From Siphonodentalium dalli (taxonomy: Eukaryota; Mollusca; Scaphopoda; Gadilida; Siphonodentaliidae), in the NCBI GenBank assembly GCA_032622095.1, contig CP136063.1, forward strand, positions 37,732,106 to 37,796,105: a DNA stretch of 64,000 nucleotides, written 5' to 3'. Of this stretch, positions 895-34,969 are shown piece after piece. Numbering within the stretch: the first letter of the stretch is position 1; each line of letters opens with the position of its first letter. The notes under the pieces were generated by a model. The model was not told where the DNA came from. It did not search any database and worked only from the letters and a program-made list of their open reading frames with translations. Made by a program: the position numbers and the translations under genes.

Positions 895-1210
895 CCATAT
901 GCATTGCCACACAGTAAAACCTTTCCAAAGTGGACCCAATATAAACGGAAATGCTCTAAAATCCGGACCCTCCTTAAACAGATGTCCTCCACATACAATA
1001 ATACCGCTCTCAAACTGGACACTATAAACCAAATATTTATCCATAAAGGCTATCCAAACGGACCTAATAATTTTAAACCTTTCCAAACCGGAACCTCTAT
1101 AAACAAAATCCCTCTACATACAGTAAAACGTCTCTAAATCGGAGCATCTATAAACCGAATCCCTCTTCAAACAAAAAAACCCTCTCTAAACCGGACCCAC
1201 CCCAACAGAA
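895..1210. repeat. 51-bp minisatellite, proximal block
   Basis: About six degenerate units with a core close to CTCTATAAACCGAATCC followed by CATACAGTAAAACC and TCTCCAAACCGGA. The block ends at about 1210, where unrelated sequence interrupts it, and the same repeat resumes at about 1628. Confidence 0.85.
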
Positions 1211-1627
1211 TCCGCCGGCATATTATATGCACAATCGAGTGGCAATAACAATAAAATTTCGCCCGAGAACCACAATGGCGAAGTTCGAATGGCATTCGCC
1301 AACAACTTTAACCGGGCGCCGCCATTGCTTACGAAAATTACGACATAATATCAACGTCCTCTGGTTGCTATGCACCTACATCAACTGAATAACAATTAAT
1401 TTAATTTTGAATACAGTTGATAATATTTTTCAAATTTAAAAGTGTTGATATTGGGGGATTGATCAAAGGAAAAATAAACTGTTTTGTTACTTCGTTAATT
1501 CGTTCTACGTGCTGGTTATTCCCCATAGGTCCGAATTGCCCATATATAAAAGCTAAAAATCATGTTGATGGACTACAGCAATGAATGATTTAACAACTAT
1601 ACGTGCGTAGCTCCTGGACCGTAGGAC
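1211..1627. other. Non-repeat interruption of the minisatellite
   Basis: About 415 bases with none of the 51-bp units. The stretch at 1250-1345 contains two GC-rich CCGCCATTG/CAATGGCG-like pieces in opposite orientation. I see no gene and no clear target duplication. It is probably an old insertion, or diverged repeat. Confidence 0.4.
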
Positions 1628-3905
1628 CTGTGGTTTGTGATGAACATAATCCCTCTCCATACAATAAAACCTCTCCAAAGTGGACACTCTATACATATCC
1701 TCCCTACCGACACAGTAAAACATATCCAAAGCCCAAAAAAAAAACCCCGTATAACCACTTACCATACAATAAAACCGCTCTCAAATCGGACATTCTATAA
1801 ACCAAATATCTATCCATACAGGCTATCCAACCGGACCTTATATAAGCCGAATCCCCCTAATAAATTTAAACCTTTCCAAATAAGAACCTCTATAAACGAA
1901 ATCCCGCTACATACAGTAACACATCTCTAAACCGAACCATATATAAACCGAATGCCTCTCCATACAGAAAAGCCTATTTAAACTAGACCTCTCCATAAAC
2001 CAAAATCCTCTCCATGCAGTACAAACCGGAACAACCACAAACTAAATACATTTCCATACAACAAAACCTACCCAAAATGCACTTTCTATAAACATAATAC
2101 GTCTCCGTACAGTAAAACCTCCCCAAACCGGACATTATTTAAACAGAATCCCCCATCCACATAGTGAAACGTCTCCAAATCAGCACTTCCATAACGGAAT
2201 CCATCCCCATGAAATAAATTATCTCCAGACCGGACACTCTATAAACCGATTACCCTACAGACAGCAAACTCTCTCTAAACAGGACCATATATAAACAAAA
2301 GCACTCTTCATACAGTAAAGCCTCTCATACTGAAACCTCTATAATCATAACCCATTATAAACAAAATCCCTCTTCATATATTCAATCCTCTTCAAAACCT
2401 CTTCATGCATTAAAACATCTTTAACTCGGACTATCTATAAACAGAATACCTCTCCATACAGTAAATTGTATCTAAACCGGCCCCTCTATAAACTAAATTC
2501 CTCTCCAAACCGGAGACTCTATTAACCGAATCCATACAGTAAAATTTCTCCAAACCGGACCCTCTTTGCCAAAATCCCACTCCGTATAGTCAATCCTCTC
2601 CAAACAGAACCCTCTATAAACCGAATCCCTCTTCAAACAAAAAAACGTCTCTTAATCAGCCCCTCCATTCAAAAAACTACCCAAAGTGGACAGGAAGTCT
2701 TTCTAAACTGGACCCTCTATAATCCGAATGCCTCTCCATAAAGTAACACCTTTATAAACCGGAAGATCCACAAACCAAATCCACCTCCATACAACACAGC
2801 CTAGCCAAAGTGGAACTTCTATAAACATAATACATCTGCATACGGTAAAACCTCTCGAAACCAGGTCCCATATAAACATAACCCACCTTCCAACTGTAAA
2901 ACCTCCCCAAACAGGACCTTCTTTATACAGAATCCCATCCATATAGTAAAACTTCTCCAAACTGGACCATCCATAACATAATACAATACCAATGAAGTAA
3001 AATATATAAAGGATGGCCTCTCCAAACAGTAAAACCTTTCCAAATCAGACCCTCTATAAAGAGAGTTCCCATGCACATAGAAAACATCTCCAAACCGGAT
3101 CCTCTATAAACATAATCCCTTTCCATGCAGGAAAACCTCTCCAAACCGCTTACCTCTATAAACCGTATCCATTACCATACAATAAAATATCTCCAACCAT
3201 ATATAGACCTAATCCCCCACCAGTGTAAAACCTCTCCAGGGAGGATCCTCCATAAACGTAACCCCTTTTCGTACAGGAAAATATCTCCAAAGCGACCCCT
3301 CGATAAGCATAATCCCTATCCATACTGAAAATCTTCTCGAAGCCGGAAAATCTATAAATAGTATCACTATCCATAAAGTAAAATCATTCAAAACGTTTCA
3401 TGCAGTAAAACCTCTCCAAAAAAGACACTATTACAACGAATCCTTCTCCAGACAATATAACCTCTCTAAATTGGATCGTCAAAAACCAAATCCATCTCCA
3501 TACAGTACAATTTATCCCAACCGGACAATCTTGGGCCCTCACTAAACCGAATACCTCGCTACACAGTAAAGCATCTCCAAGCAGGACTATCCAGAAACAT
3601 AATTCTTCTCCATATGGTAAATCATCTCTACGCCAGACACTCATTGAACTGAATCTCTCTACAAACAGCAAAACCTCTCCAAACCGGACCCTCTATAAAC
3701 ATAACCCTCCTCCTTGCAGCTAAACCTATCCAAATCAGATACTGTATATACATAATACATATCCAGACAGTAAAACCTCTCCAAACGGTACAATCTATAA
3801 ACATAATAACACTCCATGAAGTCAAATCTATCCAAACTTTACCCTGTATAAACAGAATCCCCCTCCACAAAGTAAAACCTCTCTGAGCTGGACCCTCATT
3901 AACAA
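1628..3905. repeat. 51-bp minisatellite, main block of about 45 units
   Basis: I counted successive units around 3690-3845 and each is 51 bases long. Every unit carries ctctataaac, a variable A/T-rich part, ctccatacagtaaaacc and tctccaaaccgg. Units differ from one another at many positions, so the array is old. Because 51 is a multiple of three, any frame free of stops in one unit tends to stay open. This explains the many 60-135 aa open frames here, which show a 17-residue periodicity (for example VWRGFTVWRGI on the minus strand). No start context or recognisable domain supports a real protein. The array ends just before the transposon at 4015. Confidence 0.9.
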
Positions 3906-4009
3906 AATCCATCGTCGACAAATAATGTGCATCGGTGGACCACCGGGAGGCGGAAGTCCGTTTGAACCACGTTGATCTGATTACAGGGCAGGAATTATAT
4001 AATATATCC

Positions 4010-4014
4010 AAACT
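4010..4014. repeat. Target-site duplication AAACT, left
   Basis: AAACT directly abuts the CACAGTG terminus at 4015. The same five bases follow the CACTGTG terminus at 7839. Confidence 0.7.
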
Positions 4015-4473
4015 CACAGTGTATAAACCGTACAAACATTAAATCGGAAGTTGTTTTCGAAAAGACGAAAAATGCTATTTTTAGAACGTAAATGTGACAG
4101 AAATATCACAACAACACCACAAAATCCAGGTTTCAGACGGACACACGGTTGCAACACATCTATAAACGTAATTATATATTGTACATACACATTTGCCGAT
4201 CGTAAGCGGGCTACATTTGAGCGAAAAACTCTGTTTAATAGATAAAAACGGCCTTTGATCACTTCAGAAAAAAAAATTCTCCCAAACATTCTCTCTTCAA
4301 ATGTCATTTTAACACATATCCATCATATGTCGGAAATCCCACTATATTGCAACGGAAAGACCGTTATGTGTGTAACATATATGGACACGCTCTTGGCTCG
4401 AGTGAATTCAAAATTTGAACGTAGAGAGTTTATATTTGGACACCTCACTCTCAGTCTATGTACGCCTAGTTGT
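4015..4473 (+). repeat. Left terminal inverted repeat of the CACAGTG element
   Basis: About 459 bases are matched in reverse complement by 7380-7839, with scattered substitutions and small indels. After the heptamer comes TATAAACCGTACAAACATT, which includes an A-rich ACAAACATT ten bases in. This only loosely recalls a recombination-signal nonamer, and the spacing is not 12 or 23. An open frame runs through this arm on the minus strand (4307 to 4014). Confidence 0.9.
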
Positions 4474-4840
4474 TTAAGTTGATGATCACTAGTTGCCAAA
4501 AATATGTACGCCAAGTTGTGATGATGGGAAGACGAACCCATGAATTAGGTTTCCATATATATTAGAGATACTCGGCCTACCGATTGTCACTATTAACCTT
4601 CAATCACAAGAGGAAGGCACTGTTCCGCTCCACATCCGTTTTCCGATTCTGGGATAGGGACCCATGCACCAATCCAAACTGCTTCAAATGACTATTTTAC
4701 TCAGTTTTCCTGATCTATCTTTTCCTATCAATGTTCCTTATCATGAATATAGAAGCATGCATACTTGTATATACCACAGCACTGTAAAGTTTCAAAACAA
4801 TTCTCCAATAAATGTGGGCTGTAGGGCATGCTGATGGATT
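4474..4840. other. Transposon interior, no gene seen
   Basis: This follows the left TIR and contains a partial echo of its inner end (tacgccaagttgtgatgatg near 4507). No coding sequence is supported. Confidence 0.4.
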
Positions 4841-4844
4841 GACA

Positions 4845-5125
4845 TTTAAAATCCAAGATGGCTGCAGGTGCCCATGTTTGTTTTAAACAAATTTTGGGGA
4901 ACAACGGAGGCTCCCATTTAGAGGTCACGTCGAAGATCCATATGGAGTTCGGTGACGATTGGATGAGAAATGTGACCTGTAAAGTGTGTTAAAGGATTTG
5001 GTCATACAAAGAGTAAAATCCAAGATGGCCAAAATGGCAGCCATTTATTTGACAAAATTTGGAAAAAATCGAAGGCACCCATCGAGAGGTCACGACGAAG
5101 ATCCATTTAAAGATTGGTCATGATC
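4845..5125. repeat. Imperfect direct repeats with AAGATGGC cores
   Basis: At least two related units of roughly 160 bases share, in order, AAAATCCAAGATGGC, a CATTTA/CCCAT-type stretch and GAGGTCACG.CGAAGATCCAT. A third, more diverged unit lies at 6120-6300, beyond the GC-rich fragment. That fragment therefore appears to have been inserted into, or captured between, repeat units. Confidence 0.6.
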
Positions 5126-5215
5126 GGTCAATCGGTCAATCGACGGGACGGTCGCATTGTGCTTGACGCACGAGCCGTTGATTGACCGTGAGTTATTTGT
5201 CGGGCTTGGCTGGAC

Positions 5216-6019
5216 ATGTATACTTTAATCCCCAGCCAAGTCTGCAGCATGCTGAGCGCTTTCCAGTCTGCCCATTGTGTCAGCTGGCATGTCCATGCTA
5301 ACGCGGGCAGACTGGATGTGGTTTTGGAGTATCGGGTCGCCCCAGCAGAACGTTCTGCCGCCCGCGGCTCGATAGGACCTACCAGAATCCACCGGTCCGG
5401 GGCTGGCCAGACCACCACAGACGGGGAAAAGAAAAAGAAAAAGAACCGAAAGAAGAACCCGTCTCGCCACCGAAGGGAAGGTCAGGTGGAGACAGGGGAG
5501 AACTGAGAGACGCCCAGTCCCCCCCCCCACCTGGCCTCGCAGCAGCAGCAGCCCTCTGTCGGTGCACCAGATGCCATCGGAAGCGGAAACGACAGGGACG
5601 TCGACGTCACCCCGGCCGTCCCTGTCGCCGACTTTGTGGTGAGGGCGGAGGATTTTCCACCACTTACTCCGTCTCCAAACCCGGATGCAGCGGAGGACTT
5701 CAATCCACAGACACCGAGACCTCCGGTGTCCCCCGACTGCATTGCGGAAGAGGAGCAGGAATCAACACCCCCTGCTCCTGTTGAGGATGGGGAAGCAGCG
5801 CAGAGAGCCATGCTAGACGAAATACAATCTCAGCTGGACATGGCTAAAGAAAAGGTCGCCAAAGCGTTTGCGGCCAGCGCCAGACAAGATCTGGAGCTGG
5901 AGAAACTACGTTCTTCATCATCTCCACCATCCTCGACTGAGAAACAACCAAAGAAAAAAAGAAAAAAGAGAAAATTAACATCTATTTTGGAAGAAAAAAA
6001 TGCTCTTTTTTTTTGTTGA
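5216..6019 (+). pseudogene. GC-rich coding-like fragment, unknown family
   Basis: An island clearly richer in G and C than its surroundings, with codon-like composition. The cleanest frame (about 5540-6019) reads through a Q4 run, a proline/acid-rich segment containing AEDFPPLTPSPNPDAAEDF, a predicted coiled-coil stretch (MLDEIQSQLDMAKEKVAKAF) and a lysine/arginine tail (KKKRKKRKL). The upstream frame (5216-5506) is in a different register and is separated from it by a C-run near 5520-5530, suggesting a frameshift. The architecture of acidic/proline region, coil and basic tail resembles non-LTR ORF1 or gag-like proteins, but I recognise no family. It may be a captured gene fragment carried by the transposon. 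Confidence 0.45.
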
Positions 6020-6119
6020 TCTTATAATAAAGGCATAAAAATGAGGGGTTAGGGAAAGGGTCATTCGACCCTTTCGAGAATCCCGGGGCTAGCCCCCCCC
6101 CAATCACATTCCCGCGGTG

Positions 6120-6300
6120 AGGGATAATCTCTGCATGGTGTGTTAAATGATTTAGTGATGCAAAGAGTAAACTGCAAGATGGCTGCCAGTGGTCATATTT
6201 TTCATTAAAAATCATTAAAATTTGACAGCTCCCATCTATAGGTGATCCTCGACCCATATACCGAATGTCGTTGAAATCGGTCAAAGTTTGTTTTAACACA
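6120..6300. repeat. Third diverged AAGATGGC repeat unit
   Basis: Shares TGTGTTAAATGATTTAGT, CAAAGAGTAAA, AAGATGGCTGCC and a GACCCATATACC.AATGTCGTTG-like end with the units at 4845-5125. Confidence 0.55.
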
Positions 6301-6338
6301 TTTGTTTTATTTTATTACAGATGTTTTTATTTGAAGAG

Positions 6339-6734
6339 TTAAAGGTACTCAATCCGAAATGTCTATTTCCTTGGAATCGGCGGTAAATTATATTTGATCC
6401 GAGTCGAGGAACCGACCCATCAAAGCTCAGAGTGATCAGATCTCGATGTTTGAATTCTATTATTTTTATTTTAAGTGGCCCAGTAAATAGTCGACGAGAA
6501 GACTTCTCTGAACAAATCGCGGATGAAGATGGATAACTCTAAAATCAAGTGACTTTTTTGTGTAAGATATTTGACAATAACATGTTTTGGGCAATTGTAT
6601 ACTATAGTTGACTGTGATTAACAATATTTTTGGGCAATTACTCGATTCTTATAACTGAAGCGGCAATTTAAAAACAATTGTTGTTATTGGAATCTGATGA
6701 TATGGGGTCCATCGAATCGGATTGAGTACCTTTA
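6339..6734 (-). mobile_element. 400-bp MITE, copy 1, nested in the transposon
   Basis: 396 bases with terminal inverted repeats. The left end is TTAAAGGTACTCAATCCGA and the right end is its near-perfect reverse complement. Read in reverse complement, the interior matches the copies at 35375-35775 and at 36860-37173 plus 61372-61479. Shared landmarks include ATCAGATTCCAA, AACTATAGTATA and CTCTGAGCTTTGAT. It has no coding capacity. GAAGAGTT occurs at both flanks, directly at the left and four bases away at the right, and might be a damaged target duplication. Confidence 0.75.
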
Positions 6735-7379
6735 CGTGAAGAGTTTACATTTATTTGAAGAATATTTTATTGTGTTATGTTTTCATTCACATCAGGTTGA
6801 TTAAATGATTTTTAATAGAACTATTTAAATATGAGCCTTTCCATGCCAATGTGCAATTATAGATCATTGGTGAAAACATTTAGCAAGCTGACATTTTTAT
6901 TACCCCTTGGTGTCATTCCTCATTATTAACTGCTGGTGAACTCAACACCCCTACCAAGAGTTAAGTGCATACATATTACATAATAGAAGCATTCTTAAAA
7001 CCTTTTGTCCCATTATTTTGAAGAAAAATGACTCTAGAAAAAAAATTACAGGGCCAGGAAAAATGTGTAAGCATGGCTGCAGAACCAACTACCGCCCCGC
7101 CTAGTGTTCGGAAAACAATTGCAGACCCACCCCTGACGTATACACAATTCCATAACAGAATACAACATATTTCCTCAACCCCCAAATACAGTTTTGTTAC
7201 ATGCTGAGTCGAATAAAAGTAGCTAAGTGTTAATCGAAATACCTTGTTTGATTCAGGCAGAGTCTATAAGTTCAATGACGTGACAGTTCGAAGACATAGT
7301 TATGTGTAAGTGAGTCGAAAGGAACATATCATTACTGTACGATTCCTGTACAACATCGCAACTGGTATTGTTGTCGTAC
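6735..7379. other. Transposon interior, no gene seen
   Basis: AT-rich sequence between the MITE and the right TIR. No supported coding sequence or repeat. Confidence 0.4.
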
Positions 7380-7839
7380 ACAACTAGGCGTACATAGACT
7401 GACGAGTGGGGTGTCCAAATAAATACTCTCTACTTTCAAATTGTGAATACACTCGAGCCAAGGGCATGTCCATATATGTTACACACATAACGGCCTTTCC
7501 GTTGCAATATAGTGGGATTTCCGACAGAAGCTGGATATGTGATAAAATGACATTTGAAGAGAGAATTTTTGCGAGAAAATTATTTTCTGAAGTGATCAAA
7601 GGCCGTTTTTATTTATTACACAGAGTCTTTCGCTCAAATGGAGCCCGCTTACGATCGGCAAATGTGTATGTACAGTATATAATTACGTTTATAGATGTGG
7701 TGCAACCCTGTGTCCGCCTGAAACCTGGATTTTGTGGTGTTGTTGTGATATTTCTGTCACATTTACGTTCTAAAAATAGCATTTTTCGTCTTTTCGAAAA
7801 CAACTTCCGATTTAATGTTTGTACGGTTTATACACTGTG
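7380..7839 (-). repeat. Right terminal inverted repeat of the CACAGTG element
   Basis: Inverted partner of 4015-4473. A 144-codon open frame (7406-7840, plus) runs through this arm to the element's last base. Its TGA stop is completed by the first A of the flanking AAACT. The matching minus-strand frame of the left arm is open for 97 codons and ends the same way. No known domain is visible. It is not reported as a gene. Confidence 0.9.
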
Positions 7840-7844
7840 AAACT
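7840..7844. repeat. Target-site duplication AAACT, right
   Basis: Perfect match to 4010-4014, directly after the CACTGTG end. Confidence 0.7.
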
Positions 7845-7929
7845 ATATCCCAACTGAAATAATTTTCATTGTTACCCTCCTCCCACCCTTATGATTGGCC
7901 AATGACCTTTCACGTGCTGGTCGACAAAT

Positions 7930-13785: not shown

Positions 13786-15100
13786 ATGGAACCACCGCCA
13801 CCCGAATCCGTGGAATATTCTAATCAAGATAGTTTATTTAGTCGAACTTTCAATATGGAACGAGAATGCCACCTACACGCGGCCAGTAATTCAAACATGC
13901 ACGACATAAATATACCAAATCCATCCTTTCAAATTCCGAGCGCGCAGGACACCCAGAATACCCTCATCTCTCAATTAACGCGATAAATAGGTCAATTTAA
14001 CATGACAATGCGCGAGACTTCCGCCGCCACCCAGTCACAGGCAACAGTACCTGCTATTATAGGTATGAACGCAATGGTTAGATAATTTGATGGTAAACCA
14101 AAATTTTCCAATTGGATGCACGAAATAGAGAAATATTATTCGACACTTGGTGCAGAGGATGACACAATAATTAAAATAGCGGCCCATCTGTTTCCGAATT
14201 CGTGCAGCGATATATCAATTACAATACAGTGAACGGCACACTGAAGGTCACATGGTCTGATTTAAAAGCGCAGTTGCGATCTCGTTTCAGCGCAATCAGT
14301 GACGCACCACAGGCTTTGGTCATGTTGAGAAGATTAAAACAAACGCATCAGGAAACAATACCTATGTTTGCAGAGAGAATTCGCTCACTCACAAACACTG
14401 CCTTTATTGATGAAATAAATACACGGGCGGTACAAACACAATTGGTAACATTTTTTGCGGATGGCATACGCGATGACCACATCAAATATACCTTAATTAA
14501 AGATGATCCAACGTCGCTCGTCCGTGCCACAGAGATAGCAATGAAAGAAATGAACATTAAACAGGGGTTCAAATTTCGCTATGGTGATAGAACATCTAGG
14601 TCAAATGAACAACACCAAATTCACGACTCCTTCCCACAACCCATGGAAGTTGATCATTTAGGCGCCGTCCCATACTATGGAGACCGCGCAATAATATATC
14701 TAATAGCTCTGAAACTAACAAACCAGTCCACCGCGCAAATCATCACCCAAATCAGAATGCCATCCAATTTTCAGAATACTAACTTTAATAAACAAAGCAA
14801 TTACATCCGCCAGGATCGAGTAAACAATATAGACTACAACTCAAACCGGCCAAACTTCTCAAATAAAATGAAACGCCAGTTTTGCACACTATGTAAGATG
14901 AACAACCACATTGCCGAAGACACATCGCCAATAACAAACAATATTTAAACATGTAAGAATGATTTTGAAGAAGCCGCAAGGACATTCTAAAAATCATAAT
15001 CATCATAATACATCATATCAGAGCGCGAGATATCAAACTAAAACCCTTCTTCAAAACACCCTCCAAAAATATTACAATAAACAGGTTGACTATGACTATG
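13786..15100 (+). pseudogene. gag: Gypsy-type gag, broken
   Basis: Gag of a Ty3/Gypsy-like element. The N-terminal part starts at ATG 13786 and is stopped at 13984. It reads on through another stop near 14081 (FDGKPKFSNWMHEIEKYY, a typical capsid opening), then shifts frame near 14190 into the 248-codon frame 14202-14948. That frame holds the conserved capsid helices (VTWSDLKAQLRSRF, FAERIRSL, FFADGIRDDHIKY). Near its end is a CCHC-like knuckle CTLCKMNNHIAED in which the final cysteine position is T. The protein would assemble virus-like particles around the element RNA. With two stops, one frameshift and a damaged knuckle it is a dead copy. The matching pol may be the sequence at 24004-26908. 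Confidence 0.85.
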
Positions 15101-15452: not shown

Positions 15453-18400
15453 ACTTTTTTTTTTTAGGGTATTAATTTTTAGGGAACCATTATTCAACTA
15501 TTACTATATTGGTAAACTAAATTAAGAGGATTACTCATGAGCACAGTCAGGACATCTATTGTATGTACATTTTGGTTTCATTTGGTAAGTAGATAGGATC
15601 GTTCGAGAATTGTCGTTTTTAAACATTGGTCTTGTTGGGATATTTTTAAGTCTATCTTCTAAATGATTCCATATATTTGGAAAATTATGTTCTGGTAAAT
15701 CTTCTGAGAAAATACTCTTAGGTATTCCAGACGTTAGCATTCCATTCTGACGAGTATTATTTTGTAAAATTGTGAAAAAGTTTTGAAATGAACTTGGTAG
15801 TTGATTGTGAAACCAATCGTGTATTAGGAGATTTGCATGTAAGTTATGCAGATCAGCAAATTTTAGAATTTCCATATTTTTGAACAGTGGGTCAGTGTGG
15901 CTTTTATATTTCTTATTATTAATTATGCGCATTGCTTTTTTCTGAAGTTTGGAAACATTGTGTTTTTTATTTTAATTTCCCCATATTTGAATTGCATATA
16001 TCAAATGGCTGTGAACTAATGAAAAATATAAGGATAAGTGCTTCACGTGGTAAAAAATGCTTGATTTTGTTGAGAGAGTAATTCGTACTGCTAATTTTAG
16101 CACACACAGAATTTATATGTTGATGGAATTTCAAATTTTCATCTAATTTTATGCCTAGATAAGTAACTGATTTTTCAGATCTACTGTTTCGTTGATTCGA
16201 ATTGTTAAGTTGTTACCTCTATGAGAATTGTTCATAGGATGTAGGAGGAGATATTTACATTTAGATGGATTTATTTGCAGATAGTTTGCAGAACACCATT
16301 GGTTAAAGTTTTCTAGTTCAGTGTTCATATATAATTCTAATTCACGCATATCGTTGTTGGCTGTATGAAGGGTCGTGTCGTCAGCAAATGAAAGTACAGA
16401 TAGGGTTGTTGCATTTTTCATATCGTTCACATAAATAAGAAAGAGCAGTGGTCCTAAAATAGACCCTTGTGGTACACCACAATTTACTTGTAAAGTTTCA
16501 GACAGGGAATTTTTGAAATATACACATTGTTGTCTATTATATAAATAACTACGAAACCAATCATTTGTCAGGCCTATAATTCCATAATGAGATAGTTTTG
16601 AGAGAAGAATTTCGTGATCGATTGAGTCAAAAGCCTTTGAAAAATCGATAAATAGTGCTAATGTTGAGTCTCTAGATGTTCGATCATGATTTCTTGCAGC
16701 AGAACTCAGAAGATGAAGTATGGGATGTACTGTTGAGTGTTTACTCCGAAAACCATATTGATGTTTGTACAAAATATCATTATCATTTATAAAATCCGTG
16801 AGTCTAATGGCCATTATTTTCTCGAGAATTTTAGAAAAAATTGGTAGTATACTAATTGGTCTGTAATTATTAAAATTTGAGTGGTCGCCTTTTTTGAATA
16901 TTGGGATAACTTTTGCTATTTTCATGCTATCTGGGAATCTCCCTTTTGCGAATGACTTATTTATTATGTCCACTAATGGTTTTGATACTTCATTTATCGC
17001 TGTTTTCACGAGTTTACTAGAAAAATTATTAATATCAATGGTATTTTTTGATTTTATCTTTAAAGCTGTCAGTATTACTTCCTGTTCGTTAGTTGGACAT
17101 ATTTTAAAGATCTTTGGGTAGTGATCGGTAAGGTAATCGAAATGTGAAAATTCGGATTGGGGTATAGAATTAGATATATTATGCCCTACATCAACGAAGA
17201 ATGTGTTGAAGTGCGATGCAATCTCTTTTGGGTCCGTAATCCGTATACCGTCACTAATGAATTCAGTGGGTGTTAGGAGCGATGATTTATTTTTTATTGA
17301 TTACGTTTCGGAGAATGTTCCAAGTTGCTTTCATGTTGCCTTTGTTTTCTTCAAATATGTTCGTATAATATAGTGCTTTACTCTTTCGTACAACTTTGTT
17401 GTATAATTTAAGGAATGTTTTATATTTTGTCGTGTGTGCGTCAGTGGGGTCCTTCAATTTATTCTTATATAATATGTTTTTAGTTTGTGAAGAGGTTAGA
17501 ACTCCTATAGTCATCCAAGGTTTTTGCTTAATGAAACGTTTTGGAATGCGCGTATTGGTGATAGGAAATGCTATTTCGAATGCGTCTTTATAAGCTGTTA
17601 TGAATTCATTGTATGCGTCGTTTGGGCACTGACAATTGTATACATTTTCAAAAGAAGTTGCCGTAAGAATTTGCTTGAAACAATTTATATTGTGCGATGA
17701 ATATACCCTTCGCTCTCGTGTCGAATTAATAGGAGATGCTGGAGAATGTTTTCCATGGATGTAAAAACATGCCAAGTGGTCTGAGACGTCGGTAATTATT
17801 ATTCCTGATTTATCATACAGTGAGAAATCATTGGAAAAAATATTGTCAATGAGAGTAGCTGTAAAATCTGTTATTCTAGTAGGTCTTGTAATGGTTGGCA
17901 TGAAGCCTTCTGAGAACAATGTATCGACGAATTCTTCTGTTTTATCATGAGTAGATAATTTAAGTCTATGTTAAAATCTCCAAGCAAATAGCATTTTTTA
18001 TGTTCGTTATTTATAAGACCTATAACATTTTCAAGCGAAGATTGGAAAGCGTCTATATCAGCCAGAGGAGCAGTATTTGGTCTATAAATACATCCGATTA
18101 TGTACGAACTACTTTTTTCTGGAAATATTTCCAGAAAGAGTGATTCAAAAATATGAGCGTTAAAGACAGTAAGATCATCTCTAATTTTATAAGGCACATT
18201 TTCATTTACAAAGATACCCACGCCGCCTCTACCATCGTCATTTTCTGCTCTGGTCTTATAAATGAGTGGATGATAACCATCTAACAGGAAATCTTGGTTA
18301 TTGTGTATTTTGAACACTTCGGTGAGTCCTATAATGTCAAATACATTGCTGTCATATTGTAGATCACAGAGTAATGAGTTGAATTGATCCCAATTTGCAT

Positions 18401-18660
18401 TCAAACTCCGACAATTGAGATTCAAGATGTTAGGTCCTTTAGTGTTTGACGCACCAAACTTAGCTTTAAATTCCGATGGTGAGTGGTAGTGACAACGGTG
18501 ATTATGAACGCTAAATGGCGAGTCGGGAACTAGTTCATCAGGATCATTGGTTTGTTTTAGAAGTTCCTCGTATAATGTAATGAAATTCATGTTCGGATTT
18601 CCATTGACCTCATCGAAATTTGCTCTATGTACTATCATGTTTGTAGTCTGACATTATATA
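15453..18660 (-). mobile_element. APE-type LINE, ORF2 half
   Basis: A minus-strand non-LTR retrotransposon segment with an A-rich tail at 15453-15466 and ORF2 at 18638-15531. The order endonuclease, reverse transcriptase, C-terminal domain is that of CR1/L2/Jockey-type LINEs. I cannot fix the clade by eye. It may be the 3' half of the same element whose ORF1 lies at 22715-23663, with 4 kb inserted between the two ORFs. Confidence 0.8.
15531..18638 (-). pseudogene. LINE ORF2: APE endonuclease and reverse transcriptase, frameshifted
   Basis: ORF2 nicks the target and copies the element RNA into the genome. The endonuclease part (18638-17871) shows LNLNCRSLN, the catalytic-glutamate motif GLTEVF, GGVGIFVNE, YRPN and LLGDFNIDL. 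A frameshift near 17930 leads to the next frame (17919-17287), which has the SDH motif. A second shift near 17285 leads to the RT frame (to 16155) with YRPISILP, YGFRSKHST, FIDFSKAFDSIDH, VPQGSILGPLLF and the catalytic SFADD. Further shifts near 16175 and 16010 lead to the thumb region (HSHLIYAIQIWG) and a C-terminal frame ending in CTYNRCPDC at 15531. Key catalytic residues survive but at least four frameshifts kill it. Confidence 0.9.
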
Positions 18661-24003: not shown

Positions 24004-26908
24004 ATGCAGGTTTGCACGTAATTACCAAAAGCAAAATAGTTATGCAAGTAAACCAGTCACTGGTACCCTAACCACCAGAGTAGCACATGTTACTACAAAA
24101 GAACAGAGACCTCGTTCAGACCAGGCCAATAAATCGCAACCTAATACATCTTATCATGCTGATACGAGCATTAACAAACACGTGCATTCCCCAATAATAA
24201 ATATAAATCCCGCTGGTCAGGTTAGAACAGATATGAATAAACGATTACATAACACCATTCCCAAACAAAAGGAAATTAATAGCTATGCAAAAATTCAAAA
24301 TCAAAACCAACGAAAAGCTAATCGAAATACAACAGTTTACCAATATAATAATAATGAGCCAAGTAAAAACTGTCAAAGTATAAATAACCATTCTGAACAG
24401 ATGCAAGTACATACATTACCTAAACTCAAGTACCACGCATAAATCGCACAGGGACTGCAACAGCAAACGCCTTGTTCAACAATTATTAAAATTGGTAACC
24501 AACTCATAAGGGCATTACTTGACAATGGTGCAAGTACAAGTTGTCTAAAATACGACGTATATCGCTCGCTCCCTTCCAAATAAGCCACCGTTACTAAAAG
24601 AAAAGATAATTCTGACTTCGGCAACAGGCCAAAATATGCAAGTCTACGGCAGTATACATTTGCCCTTCAAAATTGGTCAATGTCATTAGTACATAACTTC
24701 TATATATTACCCAACCTAGCAAGATCAGCGATTTTTGGTCGAGATTTTTTAACAGACAAACATGTAAGATTCTATTTCGATTTGAATGCATTTAGAATAG
24801 GCAACAAAACATTTCCCATGTTACTAGATTTACATATAGCATCATTGCTACGTTCGTGGCAAGATATCAAATTACCACCCCATTCATGTGCATTGGTAAA
24901 CACAAAAATAATCGGTACACCAGACATCCGCATCAAAACGAGATATACCGATCATACTAAGTTCAGACCAGATCTGTCAAACAAAGGCTAAGGTACCCAC
25001 TACAATTAAAATGAATGATTCTCAAGAAGTATGTAGTATAGAAAATCAAACAAAAAACCTATCTAAGGCTGGTAAGAAACCTTTCAAATTGGACGATATA
25101 TGTCCCCCCGACCACCAAAAAATTGAACTACTTGAATTGTTCTCCCAATATGAAGATGTTTTTACAAATGATCCCAATAAGGTCGGATATTGCGACAAAA
25201 TAGTCATGCGTGTTGACACCAAACGAGAAGCAGAACCTATCCTTTGTCGTGTGTACCCTACTCCCTTACATAGACGCGAACACATGGAAAAAGCACTTAA
25301 AAAATTATTGGATGCTGGTATCATAAAGAAAACTACAAACGCAAAATGGGCGTTTCCGATGACCTCATTAAGAAATCAATCGATTCTAATGGAAATTAAA
25401 ATTATAGACTATGTGTAGACCTGAGAAGGCTGATTAAAATCACCGTCCCATTACGGTGGTACCTCCCCTCTTTTACCGAAGTTTCCAGCCGCCTCCAAAA
25501 ATCCAATGTCTTTTTTACAATCGACATTAGCCAAGCTTACCATGTTATCGGTGTTCTCAAAGAACATCAAGAAAAGTTAACTATGAACACAGATTTCGGA
25601 TTGTTTTCTTTCACAAGGGCCCCATGTGGCTATTGCAACTCGAGCGCAACGTTTTTGACATTAATCCATAAAGCATTGGAAGGGTTAAGTTTTGTTGATA
25701 GCTTCGTCGATGATTTAATTTGTCACAGCGAAACGGAGGTCTTCCATAAACAGCACCTCAAATTAGTATTCGAACGACTCAGAGAGTATGGATTAGTAGC
25801 ACGATTAACAAAGTCCCAATTTTATATAAAAGAAGTAATTTTTTTAGGGCATATCGTATCACAAAATGGAATGGGCCCAGATCCCGCCAAAGTTAAAGCC
25901 ATACAAGATGTGCCGGTCCCAAAATCAGTGAAAGAAGTCCGTAGAGTATTAGGGATTTCAATTTTTATCGGAACTATTGTAAAAATTTCTCTGACACTGC
26001 TGCATCACTAATTAAATTAACTGCTCGTTACGTAAAATGTGCATGGTCCGAAGAATGTCAAAATGCTTTTGATACACTAAAACAAAATTTGCTTAAAGAA
26101 CCTACTCTGGCCTACCCATATATATATATTGCGATGCACCAATGCATTCAGTGGGGGCATCATTAGTCCAGCCATACCCAGAAAACAAACTAGAAACTGA
26201 TAACAAAACCCTGGAATTTCCAATTTGCTTTGTCGGCAAAAAGTTGAATCACTCTCAACGAAATTACAGTACTACAGAGCGCGAAGCACTCGCCATATAT
26301 GTATGTCTAAAGAAACTCAATTTCTATCTAGAGGGATCGGAAGTAGAAATACGAACATATCATTTACCCATAGTTTCTATGTTTCAAAATACTCAGATGG
26401 ATAATAACTGTATTCAAAAATGATTTATTGAAATTTCCGCATACAATCCAAAAATTACTTATATACAAGGGACTGAAAATATCGCCGCTGACTTTTGTTC
26501 TCGAGTGGACCTGACAAACCAACAGAGTATGTCAGAATGTTCATTGGAAAGCGAAGAGAAAACGCCAAATGACATAACGATCAACGACGGATCACTAAAC
26601 ATATTACATTCACAGAAAATTTAAAATTATGTCAAGACAATAGGTAAACAAAAAGCGCACACGTTGCCCGATACTATACTAATTTCCGAAAATGAACAAC
26701 TAAATGTAGCCACCAATATTGAAGAAATGCAGAAAGAGGACCATATTATTTCAGACATAATTCGCAAATTAAAATCCGATAAACCACCCGAAAAGATAAC
26801 AAAGCAATATATATTGAAAGACGGAATTATATACTATATGTCTGTCTTTAATGAGCAACGGAACGCATTTATGTCCCTGAAAAGCTGACTAAGCAGAAAA
26901 TTTCTGAA
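24004..26908 (+). pseudogene. pol: Gypsy-type gag tail, protease, RT and RNase H; integrase lost
   Basis: The reading starts at the end of a gag zinc knuckle (CRFARNYQKQNSYASK) and passes a polar linker. The protease segment has LLDNGAS (about 24507-24527), where families usually have D-(S/T)-G-A, and FGRDFL downstream. RT begins near 25011 and crosses a frameshift near 25370-25420. It shows DLRRL, TIDISQAYH (first catalytic Asp) and SFVDDL (the YxDD box with F for Y). After shifts near 25955 and 26130 the RNase H part (26142-26423) has NYSTTEREALA, but TYH stands where TDH is usual. An integrase N-terminal stretch (YILKDGIIYY) follows, then it stops at the boundary with the 207-bp repeat. 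No integrase core or 3' LTR remains. Confidence 0.9.
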
Positions 26909-33301: not shown

Positions 33302-33526
33302 ATGATTCAAGATGGCGGCCGAGGCATAATAAACTAATTTTCGCTCCCTAAATTTCGGCTTTTTAACGGGAAAAACGGTGTAATCAAGAGGCGCTAACAA
33401 GTGGAACTTCACGTGTGTAACACCAAGAAATATACGCTGCTATTATACTAATTTCAAATTTGTTTTGCTGCGTTTTTTCACACTGATAAACGTAGAAACT
33501 CCAAACATAAACAATCTCCTATCAAA
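33302..33526 (+). promoter_or_regulatory. LINE 5' UTR with YY1-like site
   Basis: ATTCAAGATGGCGGCC (33305-33320) matches the YY1 core and the motif at the 5' end of the minus-strand LINE at 23975-23988. It lies about 210 bases before the ORF1 ATG, consistent with an internal promoter near the element's first bases. No TATA box is obvious. Confidence 0.5.
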
Positions 33527-34969
33527 ATGGCGGGCGTGTTAGAAGACCCATCAAACAAATTTGTCGAGAAACCACAAGAGAACCCTGTCTCAACCAACTA
33601 CGTGTCCGTTGATGGCCAAATTATCTCACCAAATCCACATTCTGTTCAAAACCAGAAAGATCCTAAACTAGTTGACTCAACTAATGATCCAGATGGAAGC
33701 ATCCGGTCTGTATCTTTCATCAATGGCACAAGATCGGACTCTGTGATGGAGGTAATTAACTCTGTGGCTGATACCAGCTATGATATACCTGGATCACAAA
33801 CTCAATCTGATGCAAATACTAAATCTGAATCTGATGTAAATATTCATGGCAACTTCACATCCGGTCTTCCATTCAGCCAATGTTCTAGTTTAAATGCTAC
33901 ACCACAGGGCTCACCGATAGGCTCCTCTCCAAGCTTCACATACAATTTCCAATCTGTGTCCGAGTCCATGAGATCATTCAGAGCCAAAGAAAGGAACAAA
34001 CGACGCAGAGGACCAGCGACCGAAGACGATTCCCTGGATGATCATATAAACAAGACGATCAAGGATCAAATAGGCATATGCATGAAGCAAGAGTTCCAGA
34101 CGCTTGGACATCAAATGAAAATACTAACCGACATGTTCGCAACTATGAATAACACCATCGAAGAAACTGTAAAAACAAGTATTTCTAAAACACAAGAAGA
34201 GGTAATCACAGTAAAAAATGGGATGCAGTCCATGAAACTTGAAATCGACTCCCTCAAGTCTGAAGTTGGTCGACTAAAGGGCGAAAATAAAAAACTGACT
34301 GAATTAACAATGCAAAACCAAAATTCAAACACAACTACAGACCCGGTTGATAAAGAATGGGTAGAAAACCTGGTCGAGCAAAAATTCCAGGAAGCGATGA
34401 AGCACACTGATGCGGAAGTTGAGAAAGGCGAACAATATAGCAGAATAAATTGTCTGATCTTTCATAGTGTTCCAGTTCCAGATCACATCTCAAACTCCTT
34501 CAACATTGATGCCAAAGGTGTTATTCAGGACATCTGTGAAAACTTCCTTAAGGTAAAACTAGATACCCGAGACATTTCTAACGCTCATCCTCTTGGTGCG
34601 CTTTATACAGTACCCGAAGGTCCTCTAATCCCAGCTAGGAAAGCTGACAAGACAACATCTAGTATTCAGACAGTGCGCAAAACAACGACCAAGGCCTGTA
34701 ATATTATAGTCCGCTTTGGCAATTGGTACGCGCGCAAGGCAGTTTTTGACAACAAAAAATTGCTTAAAGGACACAGCAAAATATTTATCACCGAGAACCT
34801 TACCAAGGCCAGAAATGACATTGTGAAAGAACTTGCAGCGTTAAAGAAGGAAAACCACATTGCATCATATTGGACAATTCGTGGCAATATTTTCGCTAAG
34901 AAAACTGACACTTCAAGGCCCACAAAAGTAACTTCACTAAATGAAGTTCAATCCATCAAGAATAGGTGA
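33527..34969 (+). CDS. LINE ORF1 protein, intact (480 aa)
   Basis: The only long, uninterrupted, domain-bearing frame in the window. It has a serine/asparagine-rich, probably disordered head (1-150), a basic patch FRAKERNKRRRG (151-162) and a coiled coil (about 175-270, with heptads such as SLKSEVGRLKGENKKL). An RRM-like domain (about 303-408) follows, with RNP-2-like NCLIFHSVPV and RNP-1-like NIIVRFGNWYARKAVF. The C-terminal domain (418-460) has KIFITENLTKARNDIV and WTIRGNIFAKK. This is the L1/CR1-type ORF1 layout (Transposase_22-like), predicted to trimerise and bind the element RNA. The ATG has a good context (aaaATGg) and follows a typical 5' UTR. No ORF2 follows: LINE sequence ends by 35100, where a segmental duplication begins. 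It could still be expressed. Confidence 0.9.
   Translation: MAGVLEDPSNKFVEKPQENPVSTNYVSVDGQIISPNPHSVQNQKDPKLVDSTNDPDGSIRSVSFINGTRSDSVMEVINSVADTSYDIPGSQTQSDANTKSESDVNIHGNFTSGLPFSQCSSLNATPQGSPIGSSPSFTYNFQSVSESMRSFRAKERNKRRRGPATEDDSLDDHINKTIKDQIGICMKQEFQTLGHQMKILTDMFATMNNTIEETVKTSISKTQEEVITVKNGMQSMKLEIDSLKSEVGRLKGENKKLTELTMQNQNSNTTTDPVDKEWVENLVEQKFQEAMKHTDAEVEKGEQYSRINCLIFHSVPVPDHISNSFNIDAKGVIQDICENFLKVKLDTRDISNAHPLGALYTVPEGPLIPARKADKTTSSIQTVRKTTTKACNIIVRFGNWYARKAVFDNKKLLKGHSKIFITENLTKARNDIVKELAALKKENHIASYWTIRGNIFAKKTDTSRPTKVTSLNEVQSIKNR

Follow-up and report, generated by a model that had tools for sequence, protein, structure and literature searches.

As outlined in PMC12730594, the CMCT group (CACTA-Mirage-Chapaev-Transib) takes in Transib and RAG1, has C(2)C and H(3-4)H motifs in the transposase as its defining feature, and shows 5'-CA..TG-3' termini in most cases together with 2-5-bp target-site duplications. 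The same source ascribes 5-bp duplications to hAT5 as well, and they are reported as typical of Transibs (PMC4411706). According to PMC8289069, most Transib terminal inverted repeats (TIRs) are symmetric, with hardly any nonamer or none, an exact RSS heptamer is functional in a ProtoRAG TIR, and ProtoRAG, Transib and RAG all favour GC in their target sites, using AT-rich flanks less efficiently. Oysters harbour RAG-like transposons of the protostome kind as well as non-autonomous RAGL elements, and the tip consensus given for protostome RAGL elements is CACTWMCAAACKTYKBB (PMC7204232).

In a 64,000-nucleotide stretch of Siphonodentalium dalli DNA (the window), we analysed a transposon that has the CAC start of Transib and RAG-like elements and carries CACAGTG, a heptamer-like tip, at both ends. 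It belongs to a repeated, ordinary non-autonomous family of the cut-and-paste type, in whose interior no gene was recognised. A link of this family to RAG is unproven.

Structure of the element in the window

Read directly from the window sequence, positions 4015-7839 form a 3,825-bp DNA transposon with inverted ends. The order is AAACT (4010-4014), CACAGTG (4015-4021), the interior, CACTGTG (7833-7839) and AAACT again (7840-7844). The preliminary description had placed the element at 4010-7844, which is correct once the duplications are included, the element proper being 4015-7839. The long TIRs opening with CACAGTG and the AAACT on both sides, which it also described, are borne out by the sequence and by arm pairing. 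The inverted arms 4014-4450 and 7404-7840 pair over 437 nt with 94% complementarity, a second segment (4451-4476 with 7377-7402) pairs over 26 nt with 96%, and the TIR length is about 460-480 bp. Compared with the family consensus, the window copy is a standard family copy plus a 990-bp nested insertion. Its parts are as follows.

4010-4014, + strand: left target-site duplication AAACT (sequence and duplication table)
4015-4476, + strand: left TIR, starting CACAGTG; its match to the consensus right TIR extends to about 4496
4847-5127, + strand: two of three diverged interior tandem repeats of about 165 bp (repeat families D1-D3; consensus self-alignment)
5128-6117, no strand given: 990-bp nested insertion, type unassigned, missing from the standard copy (consensus comparison)
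6118-6211, + strand: family interior continued beyond the insertion; holds the last of the three tandem repeats (consensus comparison)
6341-6736, no strand given: short inverted-repeat element with AAAGGTACTCAATC... ends, present in the family consensus too (flanks TGAAGAGTT)
7377-7839, - strand: right TIR, outermost seven bases CACTGTG (arm pairing and consensus)
7840-7844, + strand: right target-site duplication AAACT (sequence and duplication table)

The nested insertion holds a 170-aa open frame, for which a Pfam search gave no match. The short inverted-repeat element (about 396 bp) is flanked by copies of TGAAGAGTT at 6332-6340 and 6737-6745, a 9-bp duplication. Because it is present inside the family consensus, it was probably carried along as the transposon family spread; related pieces were seen in many of the fetched loci. 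The interior tandem repeats (4847-5127 and 6118-6211) contain AAGATGGCNGCC-like motifs similar to a YY1 site, a likeness that is probably a coincidence. ProtoRAG is described as being regulated by a YY1-like factor (PMC7481187).

Just to the left of the element, at 1000-3900, lie imperfect 51-bp tandem repeats together with a marked bias towards C over G, and the GC skew at 2001-4000 is -0.49. A tandem array of about 12.3 copies of a 1,741-bp unit occupies 39751-61241; comparison of 18 kb with the sequence one unit away gave 99.9% identity. The window also contains LINE-type endonuclease and reverse transcriptase frames (16158-18653), a sub-threshold gag-like frame (14175-14945), another reverse transcriptase frame (25400-26008) and a 505-aa open frame (33452-34966) with sub-threshold matches only (Sas-6 coiled coil and Baculo_FP_2nd).

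The family and its insertion sites

The genome search with the TIR that the preliminary description had proposed was carried out on 2,226,750,531 bases in nine contigs (2.23 Gb). With the left TIR as query, it returned 1,138 first-look candidates; the 40 that were scored showed 93-95% identity, the query itself aside. The 26-bp tip, allowing up to two mismatches, occurs 438 times (215 + 223), compared with 0 + 0 for the reversed control. At least 100 of the 438 are exact 26-bp matches, this being the case for all 100 tips listed. Coordinates were available for the first 100 of the 438 tips and for an overlapping listing of 82, and 20 stretches of about 10 kb, then eleven more, were fetched.

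A 2,852-bp consensus was built from nine standard copies of 2.73-2.87 kb, which represent eight independent insertions, since L013 and L022 have their flanks in common and go back to a single insertion that was duplicated. The typical length is about 2.85 kb, and the two consensus TIRs agree over 483 columns at 96.5%. As each of the nine standard copies is only 2.0-5.2% away from the consensus, the family was probably active fairly recently. The CACAGTG tip is exact in most copies read, with one altered end in each of L009, L015 and L020. In the literature, Repbase being outside the search, we recognised no description of this transposon family. Two pairs of loci share their outer flanks and appear to be segmental duplications: L013/L022, inverted and about 1.5 Mb apart on C1, and L017/L018, 0.33 Mb apart on C7.

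Flanking duplications could be compared in 23 two-ended copies (21 in the main table plus L037/L038 and L039), whereas L009, L012, L014, L017, L018, L023, L025 and L026, each with one end missing or damaged, were left out. A perfect 5-bp duplication flanks 16 of the 23, although it is expected by chance at only about 0.0012 per copy. Three others have a 5-bp duplication with one mismatch (L011, L013 and L036) and four have 4 bp only (L019, L021, L030 and L035, of which L021 is ambiguous because it sits in a TA-rich run). The main table contributes 14, 3 and 4 copies to these classes, and the two later copies have the perfect duplications ACAAT (L037/L038) and ATAGT (L039). When only independent insertions are counted (L013 dropped, n = 22), the numbers are 16, 2 and 4. 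The 5-bp duplication first noted at the window copy holds for most of the two-ended copies compared, while a different length, which had been named in advance as evidence against a Transib or RAG-like origin, is found in a minority.

The flanking 5-mers, whose tabulation had likewise been proposed, are AT-rich. In the 14 perfect duplications of the main table the GC content is 24%, compared with 38.7% for the window; the centre is A or T in 14/14, and A at position 1 (or T at position 5) is found in 20/28. These 14 sites thus show a preference for a palindromic A-N-W-N-T pattern and do not have the GC bias of Transib and RAG-like targets.

Search for the transposase

Stop-to-stop frames of at least 60 aa overlapping window positions 3900-7900 number 26, and the four that were searched against Pfam gave no match, in agreement with the original statement that no transposase lies inside. 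Because it has long ends and no recognisable gene, the element is non-autonomous and needs an enzyme supplied in trans.

Longer copies were considered as autonomous candidates. Pairing by hand the first 100 of the 438 tips gave 33 facing pairs within 13.2 kb and left 34 tips unpaired. The nine of these pairs that are longer than 4.1 kb were all fetched (L029-L038); L009 and L039 are two further long copies. Eight of the nine proved to be standard elements that carry insertions or are rearranged. The ninth, L034, shares with L039 (C5, 4.8 kb) a 1.6-kb interior, 96% identical between the two, that replaces consensus positions 1810-2016 and contains frame remnants.

L034, 846-2470: alternative 1.6-kb interior
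L039, 1830-3441: alternative 1.6-kb interior

Ten frames of L029, L030, L031, L037 and L038 were compared with Pfam and matched reverse transcriptase twice, no transposase, and otherwise nothing above cut-off. Two L039 frames matched no Pfam family above cut-off; a weak match to Herpes_IE68 (E 0.041, below cut-off) was taken as chance. One L039 fragment of the alternative interior ends in RRQRLRRILRDRSNPLE, which resembles the beginning of a Harbinger nuclease. For L032 and L009 the assessment relied on their frame lists only, and for L033, L035 and L036 on comparison with the consensus only. The 6.5-kb L009 turned out to be an insertion into a standard element, and all eleven long copies are altered standard elements in which no transposase was recognised. 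The internal RAG1-like or Transib gene that the preliminary description advised looking for was therefore not recognised in the long copies examined.

The genome itself was searched in three ways, each without a positive control. The RAG1 profile PF12940 gave one candidate and no match, a pattern search with the back-translated Transib catalytic motif (checked against the solved transposase 6pqn) gave none, and a 53-aa stretch of HzTransib gave no candidates. Because these blank searches had no positive control, an absence of RAG1 or Transib from the genome is undemonstrated. A second family with the same first 13 bases was also considered and rejected, as there were 45 matches against 35 in the control and, by eye, no facing pair with new ends.

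Possible sources of the transposase

We think it probable that this repeated non-autonomous cut-and-paste family depends on a DDE transposase encoded elsewhere and that its ends fit the CMCT group best, the Transib/RAG branch of that group being without direct evidence. The fit follows from the 5'-CA..TG-3' tips and from duplications that lie within 2-5 bp, both of which the family has; the defining C(2)C and H(3-4)H transposase was not found in the family copies examined (PMC12730594). As no autonomous copy was present among those copies, the superfamily placement is drawn from tips and duplication length alone, and the family was perhaps moved by a CMCT-group enzyme. The DDE transposase, whose gene would lie elsewhere or have done so until recently, would bind the family ends, cut at the outer CAC and insert the element at A-N-W-N-T sites, where the cut would be staggered by 5 bp and occasionally by 4. 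The copies would then multiply when the gaps left by excision are repaired, and such repair could also account for the alternative interior of L034 and L039.

The identity of the tip to the RSS heptamer is, in our judgement, probably a coincidence, which is compatible with every source considered here except a Transib or RAG-like one. The four letters after CAC carry little information: given CAC, a match to them is expected in about 1 of 256 families, and a genome contains many families. One fetched locus (L011, 5776-6270) indeed holds another short CAC..GTG element, of 495 bp, with CACGGTGRGGAATCAC tips (CACGGTG) and a 5-bp AT-rich duplication, ATAAC. On the other hand, seven identical bases and a 5-bp duplication, taken together, are what one would expect a Transib-like element to have.

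One specific version of the CMCT reading, which leaves room for its other forms, has the family moved by a transposase that this genome encodes, of Transib or RAG-like (RAG1L/RAG2L) type, and takes the tip as a true homologue of the heptamer. We regard this as unlikely. The family resembles Transib, ProtoRAG and RAGL elements in a CAC tip that equals or resembles the heptamer and in the 5-bp duplications of most copies (16/23 perfect and 3/23 with one mismatch) that are typical of Transibs (PMC4411706). Its ends are symmetric and have no clear nonamer, as in most Transibs, and the exact heptamer works in a ProtoRAG TIR (PMC8289069). Furthermore, both protostome RAG-like transposons and non-autonomous RAGL elements are found in oysters (PMC7204232). 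However, the family tip CACAGTGTATAAACCGT, compared by eye with the protostome RAGL consensus, agrees in CAC and differs at positions 4-8 and in the AAA at 8-10 (PMC7204232). Its A-N-W-N-T targets contrast with the GC bias of the known systems, although AT-rich flanks do work there at lower efficiency (PMC8289069). Its TIRs of about 480 bp are a further difference, 4/23 copies have 4-bp duplications, and the RAG1-profile, Transib-motif and HzTransib searches, uncontrolled as they were, found no RAG1L or Transib sequence. The 12/23-type nonamer that the preliminary description suggested scoring did not materialize: ACAAAAACC matches 3/9 at spacer 12 and 2/9 at spacer 23, the best value being 6/9 at spacer 10, for which the chance level was not computed. 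This is neutral for Transib, since most Transib TIRs have little or no nonamer. In short, of the earlier proposal of a non-autonomous partner of a RAG-like or Transib element, the non-autonomous nature, long TIRs, heptamer-identical tips and mostly 5-bp duplications stand, and the partner in this genome is undemonstrated.

Another narrow form of the CMCT reading, which we also consider improbable, invokes a Chapaev- or EnSpm-type transposase with a variable 4-5-bp duplication. CA..TG tips and 2-5-bp duplications occur across the group (PMC12730594) and 4 bp is found in 4/23 copies, but 5 bp predominates.

Outside the CMCT group, tips of hAT elements usually start with CAGNG or TAGNG, a form that CACAGTG does not have. 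A hAT5-type enzyme, which like the family makes 5-bp duplications (PMC12730594), or an undescribed superfamily with long TIRs and 5-bp AT-rich palindromic targets, to which the A-N-W-N-T preference would be suited, is accordingly a doubtful source. KolobokP also has long terminal repeats, and its solo repeats are mainly accompanied by 3-4- or 4-5-bp duplications, but these long repeats have direct orientation and the tips of Kolobok elements read 5'-RR..YY-3', whereas the repeats here are inverted and the tips CAC..GTG (PMC9587614). Least probable of all, we believe, is an undescribed branch beside Transib/RAG that kept the exact heptamer and the 5-bp cut, has long symmetric ends, and exchanged GC-rich targets for palindromic AT-rich ones (A-N-W-N-T); if true, recognition of the heptamer would be separate from the choice of target.

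For the favoured reading, a transposase of the CMCT kind encoded elsewhere, the tabulated duplications and the tip provide a handle for finding the enzyme, and a transposase gene flanked by CACAGTGTATAAACC would speak for that gene's family as the partner. If the missing transposase were a relative of RAG1 or Transib, a natural element that combines AT-rich targets and symmetric ends with the exact RSS heptamer would show which features of the V(D)J signal are ancestral.
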